From Bacteriovoracaceae bacterium (lineage in GTDB: Bacteria > Bdellovibrionota > Bacteriovoracia > Bacteriovoracales > Bacteriovoracaceae), in contig CANCFT010000007.1 in NCBI GenBank assembly GCA_947377285.1, forward strand, positions 1-64,000: a stretch of DNA of 64,000 bases. The letters are read 5' to 3'. The notes beneath the pieces were generated by a model. That model was not told the origin of the DNA. It worked only from the letters and a program-made list of their open reading frames with translations, and made no database searches. Positions 3,387 through 45,620 of this stretch are shown here, in pieces. Position 1 is the stretch's first letter. The number at the start of each line of letters is the position of its first letter. The position numbers were made by a program, and so were the translations under genes.

Positions 3387-3746
3387 ATGAAAAAGGTGAT
3401 AGTTTTAGTCGGGCTTTTTACTTCCTTGGCCGCCAGTGCAGGTACTTTCCAAAAAACAGCTGTGACTGAGCTAGTTCCTATTCAAAATATGTATGCAGCT
3501 TTTGAACTCGTGACTCCAAAGTATGATCAGGTTGTACTTGATTGCCAAAGCTTTGTGAATGGTCTGAGTTTTTATAAAAATAAATTGAAAGTCCATGAAG
3601 TAAAAATGGTGAATTATTCTGATTGTGGTGATGTTTATGATTTTATCAATCAATCTCTCACTGACAAAGAGCCCGTTTGTTTACAATTAGAAGATGGGAA
3701 AAACGCTGTTAGTCTTTCAAATGATGGGCCGACTGACTGCCAATAA
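3387..3746 (+). CDS. Small secreted protein with four cysteines, unknown
   Basis: 119 aa with a signal peptide cut after SAA/ASA near residue 18. The mature domain has four cysteines (LDCQ, SDCG, PVCL, TDCQ), suggesting two disulfides in the periplasm. The SD GAGGG precedes the ATG. Its 3' end overlaps the convergent hydrolase gene by 38 nt. No family recognised. Confidence 0.65.
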   Translation: MKKVIVLVGLFTSLAASAGTFQKTAVTELVPIQNMYAAFELVTPKYDQVVLDCQSFVNGLSFYKNKLKVHEVKMVNYSDCGDVYDFINQSLTDKEPVCLQLEDGKNAVSLSNDGPTDCQ

Positions 3747-4641
3747 AATTTTTAAGTTCATCTAACGACTGAATTTCGATAAAGAGATCTTTTTCATTAT
3801 TGCCATTGATGACGTTGTTAATAGATTCAAAAATTTTAAACTGAACTTCTTGTGAATCATCAATTCTTGAGTGAATTTCTGGTCGCAATTCATTTATGAC
3901 TTCAGTGGTATCAGTATTTCTAGCGATATCAGGATCGCCATGAAGGAACGGAATAATTCCTTCGCTGATAAAATTTAAATTCTTTTTTACGTTCATCGGA
4001 ATAATCGTATTGTTCATTCCTACTGAGTCAATACTCACTAACAAATCAATTCCTCGGAAACCATTTTTAGCTGAATTAAGTGTGTTGGCGATCTCAACTG
4101 CACTATCGCCACCAAAACTATGGCCAACCAGAACGACTGGTTGCTCTGGAGAGTGTTTTTTTATTTCATCAATTATTTTGTCTTGTTCACCCCAAGAAAA
4201 TCTTTTAGCTCCAGGAAGATTATCGGCCATGTCTTTAATCCCATCACCATCTGAAATTCCAAACGCAGAAAAACCTTCAATAAAAATAAGTGCAGGCTTT
4301 TTAATAAAGCTATGTTTAAGAGGAGAATTTTCAGAAATTTTTGATTCTAATTTTTTTGTAGCAACTGGCTCACTTGGTACAACAATGGGAAGATTCGGAA
4401 TTTGCGGTAATGCTTTGGCCAGTGTCGTAGCACTTGTTGCAGCTGCAACTGGACTAAGTGGATTCTCTGGAGATACTGTCTCTGCCTTATTGGAATTCAA
4501 ATTTTTTGCAGTCTCAGAAATTTGGGTATTGTCTTTTACAACGGGAGTATTTCCTGAAACGTTTTTTCCTTTCATTGGTTTTAGATTAAGAAGGTTATCG
4601 TTTTTAATTGGCTCTTGAATTTTTGGTTGGACCGTCTTCAT
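3709..4641 (-). CDS. Lipase/esterase-like alpha/beta hydrolase with long disordered N-terminus
   Basis: 310 aa. Residues 1-110 are low-complexity, rich in Pro, Ala, Asn and Ser. From about 115 an alpha/beta-hydrolase core begins: a beta-strand ALIFIEGFSAFG, then the nucleophile elbow VGHSFGGDS with Ser175. The acid and His are not certain; His301-302 near the end (SAHH) is a candidate. No signal peptide is visible, so secretion, if any, is not by Sec. The ATG lies 6 nt after a perfect TATAAT with no SD, so the mRNA may be leaderless. The substrate is unknown. Confidence 0.7.
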   Translation of the reverse strand: MKTVQPKIQEPIKNDNLLNLKPMKGKNVSGNTPVVKDNTQISETAKNLNSNKAETVSPENPLSPVAAATSATTLAKALPQIPNLPIVVPSEPVATKKLESKISENSPLKHSFIKKPALIFIEGFSAFGISDGDGIKDMADNLPGAKRFSWGEQDKIIDEIKKHSPEQPVVLVGHSFGGDSAVEIANTLNSAKNGFRGIDLLVSIDSVGMNNTIIPMNVKKNLNFISEGIIPFLHGDPDIARNTDTTEVINELRPEIHSRIDDSQEVQFKIFESINNVINGNNEKDLFIEIQSLDELKNFIGSQSAHHLKD

Positions 4642-5517: not shown

Positions 5518-6888
5518 TTAAAAATTAGTTTTAAGAAGTGGCTCTGTGTCATGAATGAGTTCAAGTGCTGCTTTAATGAAATCTTTATCAAAAATTTCTT
5601 TTTTATCATTTAAAAGTAAAATAATACTCTTAAAGCTCGCATCTTTATTTGCATGAAGGGCCCAAGAAGTTGCTAGAAAATCAGAAATAGCCAGTATGCG
5701 GGCAATCGGATGGATTTTCATTCTACCAATTCCAAATGGATATCCGCTACCATCAGCATGCTCGTGGTGGTGAAGAATCGCTTGAGTAACAACTTCTGGC
5801 GTGTCTTTAATGGAAGCAAGCAATTGACATCCGAGTTGTGGGTGAGTTTTGAAAAGTTTCAATTCTTCAAATGTCATTTTCTCAATTGGTAACTCTGACA
5901 AGTTTTTTGGAAGCTCTTTTAATCCAAAATCATGAAAAAGAGCAGCCAAAGAAACATTAATTACTGTTTTATTGTTAAATTCTTTTGACTGAAGAGCAAT
6001 CGCCGAGGCAATCAAACTAACTAGTAAGGATTCTTCAGCAATGCTTGGTGAAAATTGATGTAATGAGTGGAGAGCTTGAAAAAAATCCTTTTTTTCTGAA
6101 ATAAATTTTAATGTGTTATGTATAGCGAATAGAGACATGGCCAGAGTTTCGGAACTAATATCGTGGTGAAACTCATACTCGACAATATTTTTACAGATAC
6201 TAATAAAAAATTCGCGTTTCTTTTCGTCTTTTATTTCACGAAAAGCCAATAATCGCCGGGCAATCGTAATATTACGTTTTAGATAGTTATTATAATCAGC
6301 ATTTTCCAAATAAAAAAATTCGACACCATGCTTTTTAATGGCATCAATCTTTGCTTGGTCTAAATCTTCTCCGGTATGGGCGATTTTGACAAATTTAGCA
6401 GAAGATAATTTTAGAAATACTGGATAAATAATTTTTTTACCCATGACAAATTCGTCTATATGAATTTTGCAATAATAGTCTTCTAGCTCAATATCAGTTT
6501 CTGGGCGATTAACTATATTATTATAAGATTCAACTTCAATTAATTTTTTATTGAGCTCTTCGGGTTCAAATGGTTTAGTAATAAAAGCCTGAGCTCCTAA
6601 GCGATAAGCTTCCTCAGTTTCAATAATATTCGTGAATCCGGTGATAAAAATGAGAGGGATTTTTAATCCTCTTTCTCGAATAATTTTTAAAAACATTAAA
6701 CCCGAAATATGTGGCATTTGCAGATCACTAATTATGCAATACCATTTTTTTTCATCGAGTTTATTGAGCGCTTCAGCTCCATCATTGGCTTCTGTGACAA
6801 TATACCCCAATGATTGAAGATTCATCGAAATGATTTCTCGCAGGTCGCTATTGTCATCAATTAAAAGAATATGCAACGAAGAGCTCAC
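5518..6888 (-). CDS. Response regulator with HD-GYP domain, first metal His replaced
   Basis: 456 aa. REC domain 1-120 is complete: D11/D12, phosphoacceptor D55, T83, K105. A middle region (150-215) resembles the N-terminal domain often preceding HD-GYP. The HD-GYP part spans about 250-440: H319-D320, H349, the H373-H375 cluster and DGSGYP (379-384). HD-GYP proteins hydrolyse c-di-GMP. The usual first His (as in KHSxxV) is Glu286 (EESLLV), and FHDFG replaces LHDIGK, so catalysis may be changed or lost. Likely links phosphorelay input to c-di-GMP control. Confidence 0.9.
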   Translation of the reverse strand: MSSSLHILLIDDNSDLREIISMNLQSLGYIVTEANDGAEALNKLDEKKWYCIISDLQMPHISGLMFLKIIRERGLKIPLIFITGFTNIIETEEAYRLGAQAFITKPFEPEELNKKLIEVESYNNIVNRPETDIELEDYYCKIHIDEFVMGKKIIYPVFLKLSSAKFVKIAHTGEDLDQAKIDAIKKHGVEFFYLENADYNNYLKRNITIARRLLAFREIKDEKKREFFISICKNIVEYEFHHDISSETLAMSLFAIHNTLKFISEKKDFFQALHSLHQFSPSIAEESLLVSLIASAIALQSKEFNNKTVINVSLAALFHDFGLKELPKNLSELPIEKMTFEELKLFKTHPQLGCQLLASIKDTPEVVTQAILHHHEHADGSGYPFGIGRMKIHPIARILAISDFLATSWALHANKDASFKSIILLLNDKKEIFDKDFIKAALELIHDTEPLLKTNF

Positions 6889-34788: not shown

Positions 34789-34799
34789 TTTTTTGTAAT

Positions 34800-34832
34800 C
34801 CTCTTAAGGATCCTCTTAAGGATCCTCTTAAG
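34800..34832. repeat. 12-bp tandem repeat, 2.75 copies
   Basis: Unit CCTCTTAAGGAT at 34800-34811, 34812-34823 and partial 34824-34832. It lies directly after the stop of the Fe-S protein gene. Each unit is rich in short palindromes (CTTAAG, GGATCC). Confidence 0.85.
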
Positions 34833-40839: not shown

Positions 40840-40843
40840 AAAA

Positions 40844-40871
40844 GCCCGAAACTAAATACTAAATTCCGGGC
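40844..40871. terminator. Bidirectional Rho-independent terminator
   Basis: GCCCG pairs with CGGGC, extended by two A-T pairs past a mismatch, with A6 before and T6 after. It ends the carbonic anhydrase gene and the convergent secreted-protein gene. Confidence 0.8.
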
Positions 40872-40885
40872 ATTTTTTATTGCTA

Positions 40886-41218
40886 TTATTTACAAGTTGA
40901 AACTAATTCATCATTTATAAATACTCGGGCCATAATTGCATTTTCTAAGCTTGCTCCGCGTTTTGTTACGATAATTCCTAGTTGTGCTTTTGAGTTCTCG
41001 AAACTAACAGTTGTTCTCGTTGCCCCAACGATATTAAGTAAAATATTTCTAGAAGTATTGGCACCTTCTGTTTGGCTATTTAAAACACAAGACTGAATCC
41101 CGCATTCCACTTTTAAGATATTAGATTGGTCATTTAAATTTGTGCAATCTAGTGTTGAAGCGAATGCACTAGCAGAAATAATAGTTGCAAGGAAAAGGCA
41201 AGAAATCATTTTTTTCAT
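40886..41218 (-). CDS. Small secreted protein with four cysteines, unknown
   Basis: 110 aa. Signal peptide MKKMISCLFLATIISASAFAS. The mature protein has Cys in LDCTN, VECG, QSCVL and a final STCK, suggesting two disulfides. SD-like AGGAG precedes the ATG. Monocistronic. No family recognised; it resembles other 90-120 aa secreted proteins of the window only in layout. Confidence 0.62.
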   Translation of the reverse strand: MKKMISCLFLATIISASAFASTLDCTNLNDQSNILKVECGIQSCVLNSQTEGANTSRNILLNIVGATRTTVSFENSKAQLGIIVTKRGASLENAIMARVFINDELVSTCK

Positions 41219-41445
41219 AAATACTCCTATGTTTGTTTCGCTTAAGATAACATAGGCGATAATTTTCTCTAGATAGTGGTGTCTTTTTTATAGGGATGTT
41301 AAAAAGTTGATCAGTTTTTAATGAAAGTGCCTTAATGAAATCGCATTCCAGGAATGTAATTATTACAGATAGAATATTTCAATCAAAATTTATGATATAA
41401 GACTCTAATTCATTTTTGTAATTAATAAACTCTATAGGTATAGAC

Positions 41446-42042
41446 ATGAATTCACATGCATTTTTAAAATTTATTTCGGCAATTTTTATATTTTCAATCT
41501 CATCACTTTGTTTGGCTCAATCCATAGAAAATCTTCCTATAAATATCGAAGCAAGTAATGATCTAACAAGTTTTTCAGGTAAAAAAGGTAAATTACTAGC
41601 GTCTTTTGATGGAAAACCAATTGTTCAAAATGATAATAATTGTGGGATAACGACTTGGTTTCATCCCACTCCTGATCGTCCTTATTTATCAAACGCTAGA
41701 GTGAGTATAACTAATAAATATGATACTAATTTTATGCAATTTTCTTTTTCGAGCAATACTGTTCTCTCAGGTGTTTTCAATGAAAGTTCAAGAGTAGGTG
41801 AGGCCGTTAGGCAAATTAATGATAAAGGGCAAATCGTCTATACTAACGATTATGATATAGAAGCAGATTCCAAATTTACGATCAGTTGTGGATCAGGAGC
41901 ATTTCCACATAGTAGTAAGATGGCCATGCATAGAGTAAATTATTTAATCATTGATAGAAATGCAATAAGCACAGTTACTACTTTCTCATGTGGTTTATTA
42001 AATCCGCAAAAGCATATAACTACTTTTACGTGCCAATTATAA
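41446..42042 (+). CDS. Secreted protein, unknown
   Basis: 198 aa. Signal peptide about 1-25 (cut after SLCLAQ). The mature part is beta-rich with cysteines in NCGI, ISCGS, SCGLL and a terminal TCQL. The SD is weak (TATAGG). The 227-bp gap upstream has an odd palindrome CATTCCAGGAATG (41344-41356), otherwise A+T-rich DNA. It converges on the MORN gene with 7 nt between stops. Confidence 0.62.
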   Translation: MNSHAFLKFISAIFIFSISSLCLAQSIENLPINIEASNDLTSFSGKKGKLLASFDGKPIVQNDNNCGITTWFHPTPDRPYLSNARVSITNKYDTNFMQFSFSSNTVLSGVFNESSRVGEAVRQINDKGQIVYTNDYDIEADSKFTISCGSGAFPHSSKMAMHRVNYLIIDRNAISTVTTFSCGLLNPQKHITTFTCQL

Positions 42043-42049
42043 TTAAATA

Positions 42050-42637
42050 TTAGTATTTAGTTTTTTGTTTGATTGACCCATCAGGAAAATATTCACTTTT
42101 TTCAAGTGGCTCACTGGTTTTTTCATTATATTTTGTTTCTTCAACTAGTATTCCATCTTTCCAGAGTGATTCAAAACGGTAAGACTGTTTTTTATGAAAA
42201 TAGATGTAGAAAGATTTGCCATCTAATAATCCTTTGTCATTATAAATTTCTGAGGAAGTTTGCACTCCGGCTTCAGAGTAAGTTTTTTGTTCACCAAAAT
42301 ATTGGTAATACCCATAGCCATAATCAGAATTTATATGTGCCTTATACTCTTGTCTTTTATGCCCATTATCGAAAAAGTATGTTCCAGTTTCAATTTGATT
42401 TGGAAAAACTCCGACAATTTCAAACTCTTTCTGTTTTTGACTGTTTTGAAAAAAATTAATACCTTTTTCTCCACCATCTTTTGAAAAATTGTATTGGTGA
42501 GAGAGTTGGCCTTCTTTAAAATATTCTTTTTCTTCAACTAGAACTCCGTGCTGATAAATTCGCGACATTTGTGGTAAGCCAGTTTTAAAAAATGTATTAT
42601 AAGGGCCATCGAATGTACCATTTACCCATTTACCCAT
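42050..42637 (-). pseudogene. 3' part of a MORN-repeat gene, split by an 8-bp repeat
   Basis: 195 codons with MORN/YwqK-like repeats: GKWVNGTFDGPYN, YFKEGQLSHQYNF, GTYFFDNGHKRQEY, NDKGLLDGKSFYIYF and YFPDGSIKQKTKY. Its apparent ATG lies inside the repeat at 42620-42651 and it has no signal peptide. Removing two repeat units fuses it in frame to the gene upstream. In the present state it could still be made by reinitiation, because its ATG overlaps the upstream stop. Unknown role, probably surface or periplasmic when fused. Confidence 0.75.
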
Positions 42638-42651
42638 TTACCCATTTACCC
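42620..42651. repeat. Four-copy octanucleotide repeat, likely phase-variation tract
   Basis: Four exact tandem copies of ATTTACCC (GGGTAAAT on the coding minus strand), plus a partial copy. Because 8 is not a multiple of 3, gain or loss shifts the frame. One register reads GGG-TAA and stops translation. With two copies the flanking MORN frames join without a stop. Confidence 0.9.
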
Positions 42652-43232
42652 CGAATTCTCGGCTTTCCATTTGCATAATTAACAGAAATCTCTTTGTTTT
42701 TATCTTTAAATTCAGCCGCGGCCATTTCTTTTAAATGCGCTCGAACTTGTGAGTCGAAAATGCCAAATTTTTCACTTAAGCATTCATTATAGCTAATATT
42801 TTGATTATCTTTTATGCAAGCACCAATATAGTCTTTTACATGAAAATTTTCATCGGCTTTAAACGTTAATTTAATTTTTTTATCTTTTTCAAAGTATTCA
42901 ATATTCCATATGTTTTGGGATTCATCAAAAAGTCTGAATTCACCATTTTTTTTGCCGTCACTATATTCACCAGTTGCTAAAACAAAACCTAGAAAACTTC
43001 GACAAATAAAGGTACCGTCCGGAATACCTTCTTTATAGTTTGCTTCAAGTAATACAATCTTAGGATTATCCAAAGCTCTGCAGATTTCTTTTCCGAGTTT
43101 TTTTCCGTCAACAATTTTCACTTCGCAATTGTCATCGGTTTTACAATTTAATTCTGAATTGTAATCACTTGCCATGAGTGAAGAAGAAAATATTATTAAA
43201 AGCACAAAATGGATTAAAGTTTTTTGAATCAT
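42630..43232 (-). pseudogene. 5' part of the split MORN-repeat gene, with signal peptide
   Basis: 200 codons. Signal peptide about 1-22 (cut after LMAS). Mature part has cysteines in LNCKTDDNCE, EICRA, FICRS, GACIK and NECLS, and MORN-like ANYKEGIPDGTFICRS and GEYSDGKKNGEFRLF. It ends at a TAA created by the third repeat unit, right after RIRGKWVNG. The downstream frame starts with the same GKWVNG. Whether this is truly off in the cell or an assembly artefact cannot be told from the sequence. Confidence 0.78.
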
Positions 43233-43774
43233 TCGTCACTTCCAATTGTTAAATTTACTTTTTTCACATAAGCTTCGAAAAGTTTTCTAGATTGAGCCGA
43301 TTTTTCATCAAACAAAATATTTAGATCTTCAATTTTGTTTATTTCGGATCGCAATTTTATTCCTAACTCTTTTATAGTTTGCACCGTTTTGTTTTTTGCT
43401 GGGTTCTTACTAAGAACTTGAACCACTTCATTTTCAAAACTTTCACTTTCCATCGAAACTTGAGTGGAGTTTAATTTTCCAATATCATTTTTTGAAGAAA
43501 ATTGAGGGGTTTGATTCTTTTTACTTTTATTTTCCTTAAAAAGAATACTACTAATCCATTTTTCGGCATCTGTATTAGTGGGGTCTGATTTAAAAATTAA
43601 TTTTTTCTTTTCAAAATCAAGAGAGTCGTTTTTGGTGTTTGCATAGGTGCAAAAATAAGTATCAATTTTATCTAAGACTATAAATGTTTGCTTCTTGTTT
43701 GTTTTGCATTGATCTGCAATGACTTTAATTGGCTTAATGCAATTATCTAAAGACCATCCTGAATCTTTTTGCAA
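43229..43774 (-). CDS. Protein of unknown function, possibly 5'-truncated
   Basis: 181 aa from a TTG at 43774, the only usable start. The open frame runs 13 codons further (to NLNWTSFEDFL) without ATG, GTG or TTG, and a stop lies before that. The middle is Lys/Asn/Ser-rich and the end helical. Cys residues in DNCIK, DQCK and TYFCTY hint at export, but no signal peptide is present. Overlaps the MORN 5' part by 4 nt (coupled). A damaged 5' end is possible. Confidence 0.45.
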   Translation of the reverse strand: MQKDSGWSLDNCIKPIKVIADQCKTNKKQTFIVLDKIDTYFCTYANTKNDSLDFEKKKLIFKSDPTNTDAEKWISSILFKENKSKKNQTPQFSSKNDIGKLNSTQVSMESESFENEVVQVLSKNPAKNKTVQTIKELGIKLRSEINKIEDLNILFDEKSAQSRKLFEAYVKKVNLTIGSDE

Positions 43775-43809
43775 AAAATCTTCAAAGCTTGTCCAATTTA
43801 GATTTTTTT

Positions 43810-43838
43810 TAGACTATATTAAATTTCGATAATATAAT
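43810..43838 (+). promoter_or_regulatory. Strong promoter giving a probable leaderless mRNA
   Basis: TAGACT (43810-43815), 17-bp spacer, perfect TATAAT (43833-43838). Six bases separate it from the ATG at 43845, with no room for an SD. Confidence 0.6.
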
Positions 43839-43844
43839 TTCGTA

Positions 43845-44141
43845 ATGAATTTTATATTTGAATCATTAGAAAAAAAGTTATCCAAATACTCCTATACTTT
43901 CGCCGGATTGTTTAGTTTATTTATTGTTTTAACTTCATTATTACTTTTTTTATTAATCTCTTATGAGATTTTAAATTTAAATGGACTCTATGAAGATTGG
44001 GCACATCCGAAATCAGCGATGGTTAGCGTCGAAGGCTTGCTAGTAAGTTGCGTAATGTTCTTTTCATTTTTTATAGTTGAAATATTATTTATTCGAAAAA
44101 TGGTGATTGTACTTAAAAATTTAAAGCTTCTAAAAATATAA
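43845..44141 (+). CDS. Small membrane protein, two TM helices
   Basis: 98 aa. Two hydrophobic helices (about 17-42 and 62-85) joined by a short loop LNGLYEDWAHPKSAM, with basic ends. No SD; the promoter layout suggests a leaderless transcript. Convergent to the CrtI-like gene. No family recognised. Confidence 0.55.
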   Translation: MNFIFESLEKKLSKYSYTFAGLFSLFIVLTSLLLFLLISYEILNLNGLYEDWAHPKSAMVSVEGLLVSCVMFFSFFIVEILFIRKMVIVLKNLKLLKI

Positions 44142-44153
44142 ATATATACTTTC

Positions 44154-45620
44154 TCATTCAGCTAGATAATCAACCAAGTTCATTGAACCCATAACAACCG
44201 CCGCAATTCCCTGACCAGGAAATTGAGTATCGCCTAGCATATAAAAATTTTTATAAGGCGATTTTGCGAAAATTAATTCCATTGGATTTCGATTCAGGGA
44301 ATGGGGAATTCCACCGACTAAGCCAAAGGATCGCTTAGTATATTTAATAAATGTTTTAGGTGTTCCTGTTAATTTGTTTTGCAGATCTTCTTCGCCGAGT
44401 TGAAATTTTTGTTTCAAAATACGTAGGATATAATTTTCTGTTTCAATTTTTTTTAATTTATACTGCTCTTTATCTAAACCGATCCATTCTGCTGGTTTTG
44501 TATGAGTCGAAATAGTAACAACTTGTCTTCCTTTGATAGATCTAGACTTATCTTCAGGATGAGAAAGTGAAACAAAAAAAGATTTTGTTGAGCAGTTTGG
44601 TATGACTTGATTCTCCGGGCAATGGATCTGAAAATACAGACCAACTCTTGAAGTATTAATTGGAATGGTTAAATAAATCATAAAAGCAGACCAACAATCT
44701 TTTGGGTCGTGAATTTTTTTTGCCGAAAAAAAATCGCGAGCTTTTTGATCTTCGAACATCTCGGCATGGTTCCAGATGGGAATCGTCGAGATAAGTTTTT
44801 TGCCATGAAAAACTTTTCCTGTAATCGTCGTAATGCTGAAACCTTCTTTTCCTTTTTTTAATGCTTCAATTTTTTTGACTTGTTCTTTAAAAAAAAGATG
44901 CGAGCACTTTGCAGCGAGTGCGTCTGAAAAGGCTTTCATTCCTCCCATGGCATAGAATGTATCTTCTGGGTAACAAAGTCCCATTGCACCCATCAGAAGC
45001 GGTGTTGTTTCCATTTGACTTTGGGCAGTAATAAAAAGAAGTTCATTTATCATGTCTAAATAGTTCTGATCTTTTATATTATATTTTTCTAATTCGGACT
45101 TCACACTTGTGAAAAATTTTGGAATCGCAAGAACGGCTCCGGGAAGTTTAAGAGAAAAAAAGGGGAGTAGGCTGCGAGCTGATCGCATCGGAATATTTTT
45201 AAATATTGTAGATAAATTCCATCCTCGCCGCTCAATTTTTTTTAATTTTTCCCAAAGTGATTGATGGTCGATACCAGGAAATTTTTCTGATAATTCAGCG
45301 ATCCATTGATTGGTATTTTTATGATGGGAAATTTTTTGATCACCAATTATTGAAATGATTCCTGGATCGATCGATACAAGTTCAAGCTGGAGATCGAGTT
45401 CTTTGATTAAATTATTGAGAGGTCGGCCTTTGGCCATACCTGAAAGTGTCGTGGCCCCTGCATCGAAAGTAAAACCCTCTCGATCAAAATAAGATGAGCA
45501 TCCGCCTGGAAGTGTATGGGCTTCAAGGACAGCGACCTTGAATCCTTTTTTTTCCATGAGAGCGGCAAAACTTAAGCCAGAGGCACCCGCGCCAATAACA
45601 ATATAATCGTAATATTCCAT
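44154..45620 (-). CDS. FAD-dependent oxidoreductase, phytoene desaturase/CrtISO-like
   Basis: 488 aa. The dinucleotide fold YIVIGAGASGLSFAALMEKKGFKVAVLEAHTLPGGCSS opens the protein and the C-terminal FAD motif NFYMLGDTQFPGQGIAAVVMGS closes it, as in CrtI and CrtISO. Members desaturate or isomerise carotenoids; others act on retinol. No other carotenoid gene is in the window. Monocistronic, substrate uncertain. Confidence 0.88.
   Translation of the reverse strand: MEYYDYIVIGAGASGLSFAALMEKKGFKVAVLEAHTLPGGCSSYFDREGFTFDAGATTLSGMAKGRPLNNLIKELDLQLELVSIDPGIISIIGDQKISHHKNTNQWIAELSEKFPGIDHQSLWEKLKKIERRGWNLSTIFKNIPMRSARSLLPFFSLKLPGAVLAIPKFFTSVKSELEKYNIKDQNYLDMINELLFITAQSQMETTPLLMGAMGLCYPEDTFYAMGGMKAFSDALAAKCSHLFFKEQVKKIEALKKGKEGFSITTITGKVFHGKKLISTIPIWNHAEMFEDQKARDFFSAKKIHDPKDCWSAFMIYLTIPINTSRVGLYFQIHCPENQVIPNCSTKSFFVSLSHPEDKSRSIKGRQVVTISTHTKPAEWIGLDKEQYKLKKIETENYILRILKQKFQLGEEDLQNKLTGTPKTFIKYTKRSFGLVGGIPHSLNRNPMELIFAKSPYKNFYMLGDTQFPGQGIAAVVMGSMNLVDYLAE

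Follow-up and report, generated by a model that had tools for sequence, protein, structure and literature searches.

An octanucleotide array interrupts a probable MORN-like gene in a Bacteriovoracaceae bacterium: probably a recent slippage product rather than an evolved switch

Tandem octamer arrays are known from Haemophilus influenzae, where, in the excerpted text of one survey (PMC2651432), they lie upstream of genes, with 12-15 copies at hmw and 1-6 at a pyridoxine biosynthesis gene; the same excerpts describe an octamer locus whose copy number is one, four or six, and whose limited variation and short length were judged unexpected for a classically phase-variable locus. For genes whose reading frame changes midway, the excerpted part of a GeneTack survey (PMC3711429) attributes unclustered frame changes to likely indel mutation or sequencing error, requires for its phase-variation and coupling classes a group of clustered relatives with a common frame change, and places most studies of repeat-driven switching in pathogens. 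Here we analyse a 64,000-nucleotide stretch of a Bacteriovoracaceae genome (GCA_947377285.1, contig CANCFT010000007.1, positions 1-64,000; hereafter the window), in which 4.25 exact copies of the 8-base unit GGGTAAAT (minus strand; 42618-42651) stand between two minus-strand open reading frames (ORFs) of 200 and 195 residues that likely form one gene. Like the H. influenzae loci as excerpted, it is a tandem octamer, with a copy number (four) inside the one, four or six range of the locus mentioned above, and unlike them it is intragenic and carries a stop in every frame. Like the singletons of the GeneTack excerpt, it presents one gene in two frames with a tandem repeat near the change and a second start within 10 nucleotides of the stop, and unlike the phase-variation and coupling classes there it lacks a cluster of relatives with the same frame change. 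It also shares with de novo tandem duplications in a beta-lactamase gene, as described in part of PMC4169377, a revertible duplication within coding sequence, although those were laboratory-selected and altered substrate range, whereas no selection or reversion is known here. A description of this particular locus was not found in the open literature searched.

Tandem Repeats Finder (TRF) applied to the window reports 42618-42651 as a period-8 repeat of 4.2 copies with 100% match, and together with the sequence itself this confirms the four exact units between two frames on which the original prediction was built. The array has the makings of a contingency locus, with at least three uninterrupted units of a length that is not a multiple of three, within a gene. 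The upstream half (N half; 42630-43232, minus strand, 200 residues) has a GGAAG-type ribosome-binding site ahead of its ATG and a signal-peptide-like N-terminus, both judged by eye, and ends at a TAA inside the array, while the downstream half (C half; 42050-42637, minus strand, 195 residues) begins with an array-internal ATG and shows no signal peptide by eye. Stop and start overlap by 8 bases (42630-42637, ATGGGTAA on the minus strand), as had been foreseen, placing the second start within the 10 nucleotides of the first stop that mark coupled gene pairs and creating a possible reinitiation site. With the array excluded, the in-frame codon log-likelihood is 0.187 bits per codon in the N half and 0.205 in the C half; it is negative in the other two same-strand frames of both halves, and one reverse-strand frame per half is slightly positive (0.058 and 0.037 bits per codon). 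The coding signal is similar in both halves, and where they meet both read GKWVNG in a common phase.

In a long run of the unit, TAA occurs in all three frames within 24 nucleotides and is followed directly by ATG, each array frame reading GKWVNG, stop, methionine. Because every array frame meets TAA within this distance, arrays of at least three units are closed. With two units the frames are in phase over 1167 nucleotides including the stop, or 388 residues; the predicted fusion without a stop is right as to phase and slightly off in length, which had been put at 390. The GGG-TAA predicted for three or four units is likewise correct but not special to them, as any array of at least three units stops; with five units the halves are again in phase by length, yet the same TAA is met. 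A single array length is open, and further unit gain does not reopen the gene. By frame arithmetic, a locus shaped for switching would be expected to open again at each third length, and no such periodic reopening accompanies unit gain or loss here.

We consider it probable that the locus is a recent slippage-born allele of an accessory gene, null or nearly so, which is formally revertible and did not evolve as a switch. The coding sequence would once have held the 8-base stretch repeated about twice, and slipped-strand expansion of that stretch, the obvious origin of the array, would have interrupted the gene. At four units the upstream frame runs into TAA and would yield an exported fragment of 200 residues; the downstream 195 residues would be made at most at a low level, by reinitiation and without a signal peptide. 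Partial expression by that route, as originally proposed, is made possible by the overlap of ATG and stop, though its product would not carry the export signal. The break could in principle be undone, as a slippage origin implies, by the loss of two units, which could bring the halves back into phase; and since every array of at least three units is off, the locus does not appear to be built as a switch.

The foremost alternative, itself unlikely, is true phase variation, in which the unit number would change frequently and only some cells would make the full-length exported protein. It draws on a unit length that is not a multiple of three, inside the gene of a probably exported protein, on two halves that are otherwise undamaged, and on a copy number above the threshold of three used in the excerpted H. 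influenzae survey (PMC2651432). Against it stand the single open array length and the verdict, in the same excerpts, that a similar octamer locus is not classically phase-variable. Octamer arrays of at least three copies were absent from 3.84 Mb of order-3 Markov sequence modelled on the window, and the three-unit pattern, allowing up to three mismatches, matched the window only within the array and none of 100 dinucleotide shuffles of it, so the array is not a chance product; it is real and unusual. Its two-unit 16-mer occurs nowhere else in its own genome. In a sample of 784 kb of that genome (3.45 Mb in total) we found four exact arrays whose period is 4-12, whose copy number is three or more and whose length is at least 16 nucleotides, namely two hexamers, one CAAT x4 and the octamer at 42618-42651, which is the sole octamer array and the sole array of period 7-12 among them; 400 kb of genomes G002 and G009 gave two such arrays, both 12-mers. 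Simple repeats are thus scarce in the part of the genome sampled, and the array is not part of a visible repertoire of contingency repeats. Among 129 genomes of the family, the three-unit 24-mer was found in its own genome only, and three exact units occur in none of the 128 others, all of which are other species; the reversed-pattern control of this search was uninformative, since reversal turns the unit into a rotation of itself, so that the control pattern finds the same array. With one open length, no repeat repertoire in the sample and no three-unit array of this octamer among those 128 genomes, the phase-variation locus of the original prediction is not supported, and its anatomy favours a recent null allele born of slippage over phase variation.

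Further repeats came to light in these scans. In G009, locus L111 carries two arrays of 5.92 copies each of 12-base units (6287-6357 and 6431-6501), the first of which reads in frame as EDKR repeats within an open frame of 405 codons. In the window, the top TRF score belongs to a 12-base repeat, ATCCTCTTAAGG, with 2.9 exact copies at 34798-34832, where no ORF of at least 110 residues is listed.

The MORN label is given by resemblance. MORN_2 (PF07661) matches the C half at E 0.3 and 11.9 bits against a gathering cut-off of 29.6 and gives no match to the N half, so that, unlike MORN_2 proteins, neither half reaches the Pfam cut-off; NCBIfam gave a best E of 0.68 for the C half and no match for the N half, and the best PHROGs values were E 0.31 and 0.16 for the halves. 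The AlphaFold2 model of the C half (mean predicted local distance difference test score, pLDDT, 82.3) is all beta, with successive hairpins forming a sheet in line with a MORN-like fold, and in this predicted form it resembles MORN_2 proteins and OspA-type single-layer beta-sheets. The N half is modelled at a mean pLDDT of 56.9 and has a local match to a Bacteroides protein with five MORN_2 stretches, the one relative found when genome contigs were scanned with the N half only. The two MORN frames that had been predicted thus agree with the fold modelled for the C half and not with the family cut-off. Together the halves probably form one MORN-like single-layer beta-sheet protein. The signal-peptide-like N-terminus suggests that it is probably exported, and is the sole basis for the surface location in the earlier description; products of contingency loci are usually, though not universally, exposed at the cell surface. 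The N half also has a weak match to Late nodulin (19.7 bits against a cut-off of 30.4; residues 7-39, over the signal-like region), which was set aside.

Relatives of either half are few. The N half matches three of the 129 family genomes, its own included, and a class search, also of 129 genomes, returned the same three; the C half matches three of 57 relatives and five of 129 genomes, again counting its own. Viral contigs, scanned with the C half, gave no relative, nor any exact match of a 20-base pattern of the joint. We chose three relatives for comparison, from G009 through the N half, from G116 through the C half and from G007 through MORN_2, the last being the one of 14 genus genomes returned by that search, below cut-off. 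All three are single ORFs (358, 440 and 417 residues, respectively, from the chosen methionine), so that the split is conserved in none of them, at what is a distant homology. In a profile of the three, the N half falls at the beginning and the C half at the end, and none of 1000 shuffled halves came close (best E 0.0025). A stricter comparison used only relatives that had not been picked by the tested half, again with 1000 shuffles. For the N half, the score was reached by four shuffles against G116 alone and by two against G116 and G007 together. The C half fared differently, its score being reached by 165 shuffles against G009 and G007 and by 616 against G009 alone, and the independent part of the homology is weak. 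The G116 protein nonetheless combines in one ORF an end resembling the C half (E about 5e-7) with a start that more weakly resembles the N half, and because of this protein, the shared phase at the joint and the sheet fold, we regard the two halves as likely to form one gene. A MAFFT alignment of the G009 protein with both halves laid the halves over one another and was not used. The G009 protein itself, searched against the genus, matched only itself (1 of 14 genomes), and shows a weak match to the LIC20035 adhesin model (23.6 bits against a cut-off of 250). An intact MORN-like gene of G009 (L009, 1465-2562) lies between genes that look by eye like homologues of window ORFs 3387-3746 and 3709-4641, which in the window adjoin without a MORN-like gene between them; such genes may be gained and lost at various sites.

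The single frames of these relatives also speak against the next alternative, a working split gene in which the stop-start overlap would couple translation, the second half being made by reinitiation and the unit number setting the coupling. The 8-base overlap, the TAA followed directly by ATG in any array frame and the coding signal kept in the second half fit such an arrangement, which we nevertheless hold to be quite unlikely: the second half, made in this way, would carry no signal peptide and would begin inside a predicted strand (in a low-confidence part of the models), no clear ribosome-binding site was seen by eye before its ATG, and RNA structure at the joint does not exceed that of shuffles (z 1.04). 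A one-sided stochastic switch, in which two units would give the full exported beta-sheet protein and longer arrays an exported fragment plus a reinitiated cytosolic one, with the unit number tuning the distance from stop to start, seems to us highly improbable. We give very little credence to an assembly or consensus error that would hide a true unit number other than four. Assembly errors are known to occur at tandem repeats and the genome is a draft (68 contigs, 92.75% complete), but the units are exact, the array sits at 42.6 kb of a 116.9-kb contig, far from its ends, and its 34 bases fit within one ordinary short read (the read type behind the assembly is not known). Least credible of all are two unrelated neighbours whose ends met in the array by chance, a picture that suits the failure of the C half to exceed shuffles against G009 or G007 and clashes with the in-phase GKWVNG on both sides, the array-borne start codon that immediately follows an in-frame TAA, and the two-ended likeness of the G116 protein.

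As the evidence stands, a slippage-born null allele would be a case of a gene broken, in a manner that is formally reversible, by a near-repeat that its coding sequence held by chance, and it cautions that a split gene with a repeat is not always phase-variable. Should the unit number vary in the population, repeat-driven switching would extend to an exported protein of a lineage that we take, from an impression of its gene content, to be environmental.

The split gene occupies a species-variable spot (40840-44153) between a carbonic-anhydrase-like gene and a flavin adenine dinucleotide (FAD) oxidoreductase gene, which we compared with loci L036, L040, L042 and L051-L055. The spot is visible in nine of the 13 other genus genomes; G006, G007, G012 and G013 were not counted, owing to contig ends or the lack of a close carbonic-anhydrase-like copy. 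In G002 and G008 the flanking-gene matches lie 10 bases apart and the intervening stretch is absent, G009 has one other gene between the two flanks, G003 and G010 lack the FAD gene and continue from the carbonic-anhydrase-like gene into the genes further along the flank, and G001, G004, G005 and G011 carry other genes after the carbonic-anhydrase-like gene. When the six ORFs of the spot were searched by phmmer against ORFs of at least 60 residues in the collected loci, own copies excluded, only MORN-type matches were returned, for the two halves. Over 41900-44200, promoter-like sites number 10 and terminator-like sites 0, where shuffles average 12.6 and 1.0. Directly upstream, an ORF at 43229-43774 (minus strand) has a stop that overlaps the ATG at 43232, a TTG as its only start, ATG being absent, and a TAG in frame a short way upstream; it has no match in the 128 other family genomes. 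A homopolymer slip behind its missing start was considered and rejected, since in three-frame translation no upstream frame stays open, and the ORF may be a 5'-truncated remnant. These features suggest an accessory, poorly conserved region that would tolerate a null allele. In this position G001 and G004 encode low-complexity short proteins with signal-like starts (L051, 2598-3446; L052, 2572-3313), one of those in G001 having repeats of the type GVIQPGVIQSG, and in G008 the match to the carbonic-anhydrase-like gene (L039, 1501-2112) contains one internal TAA.
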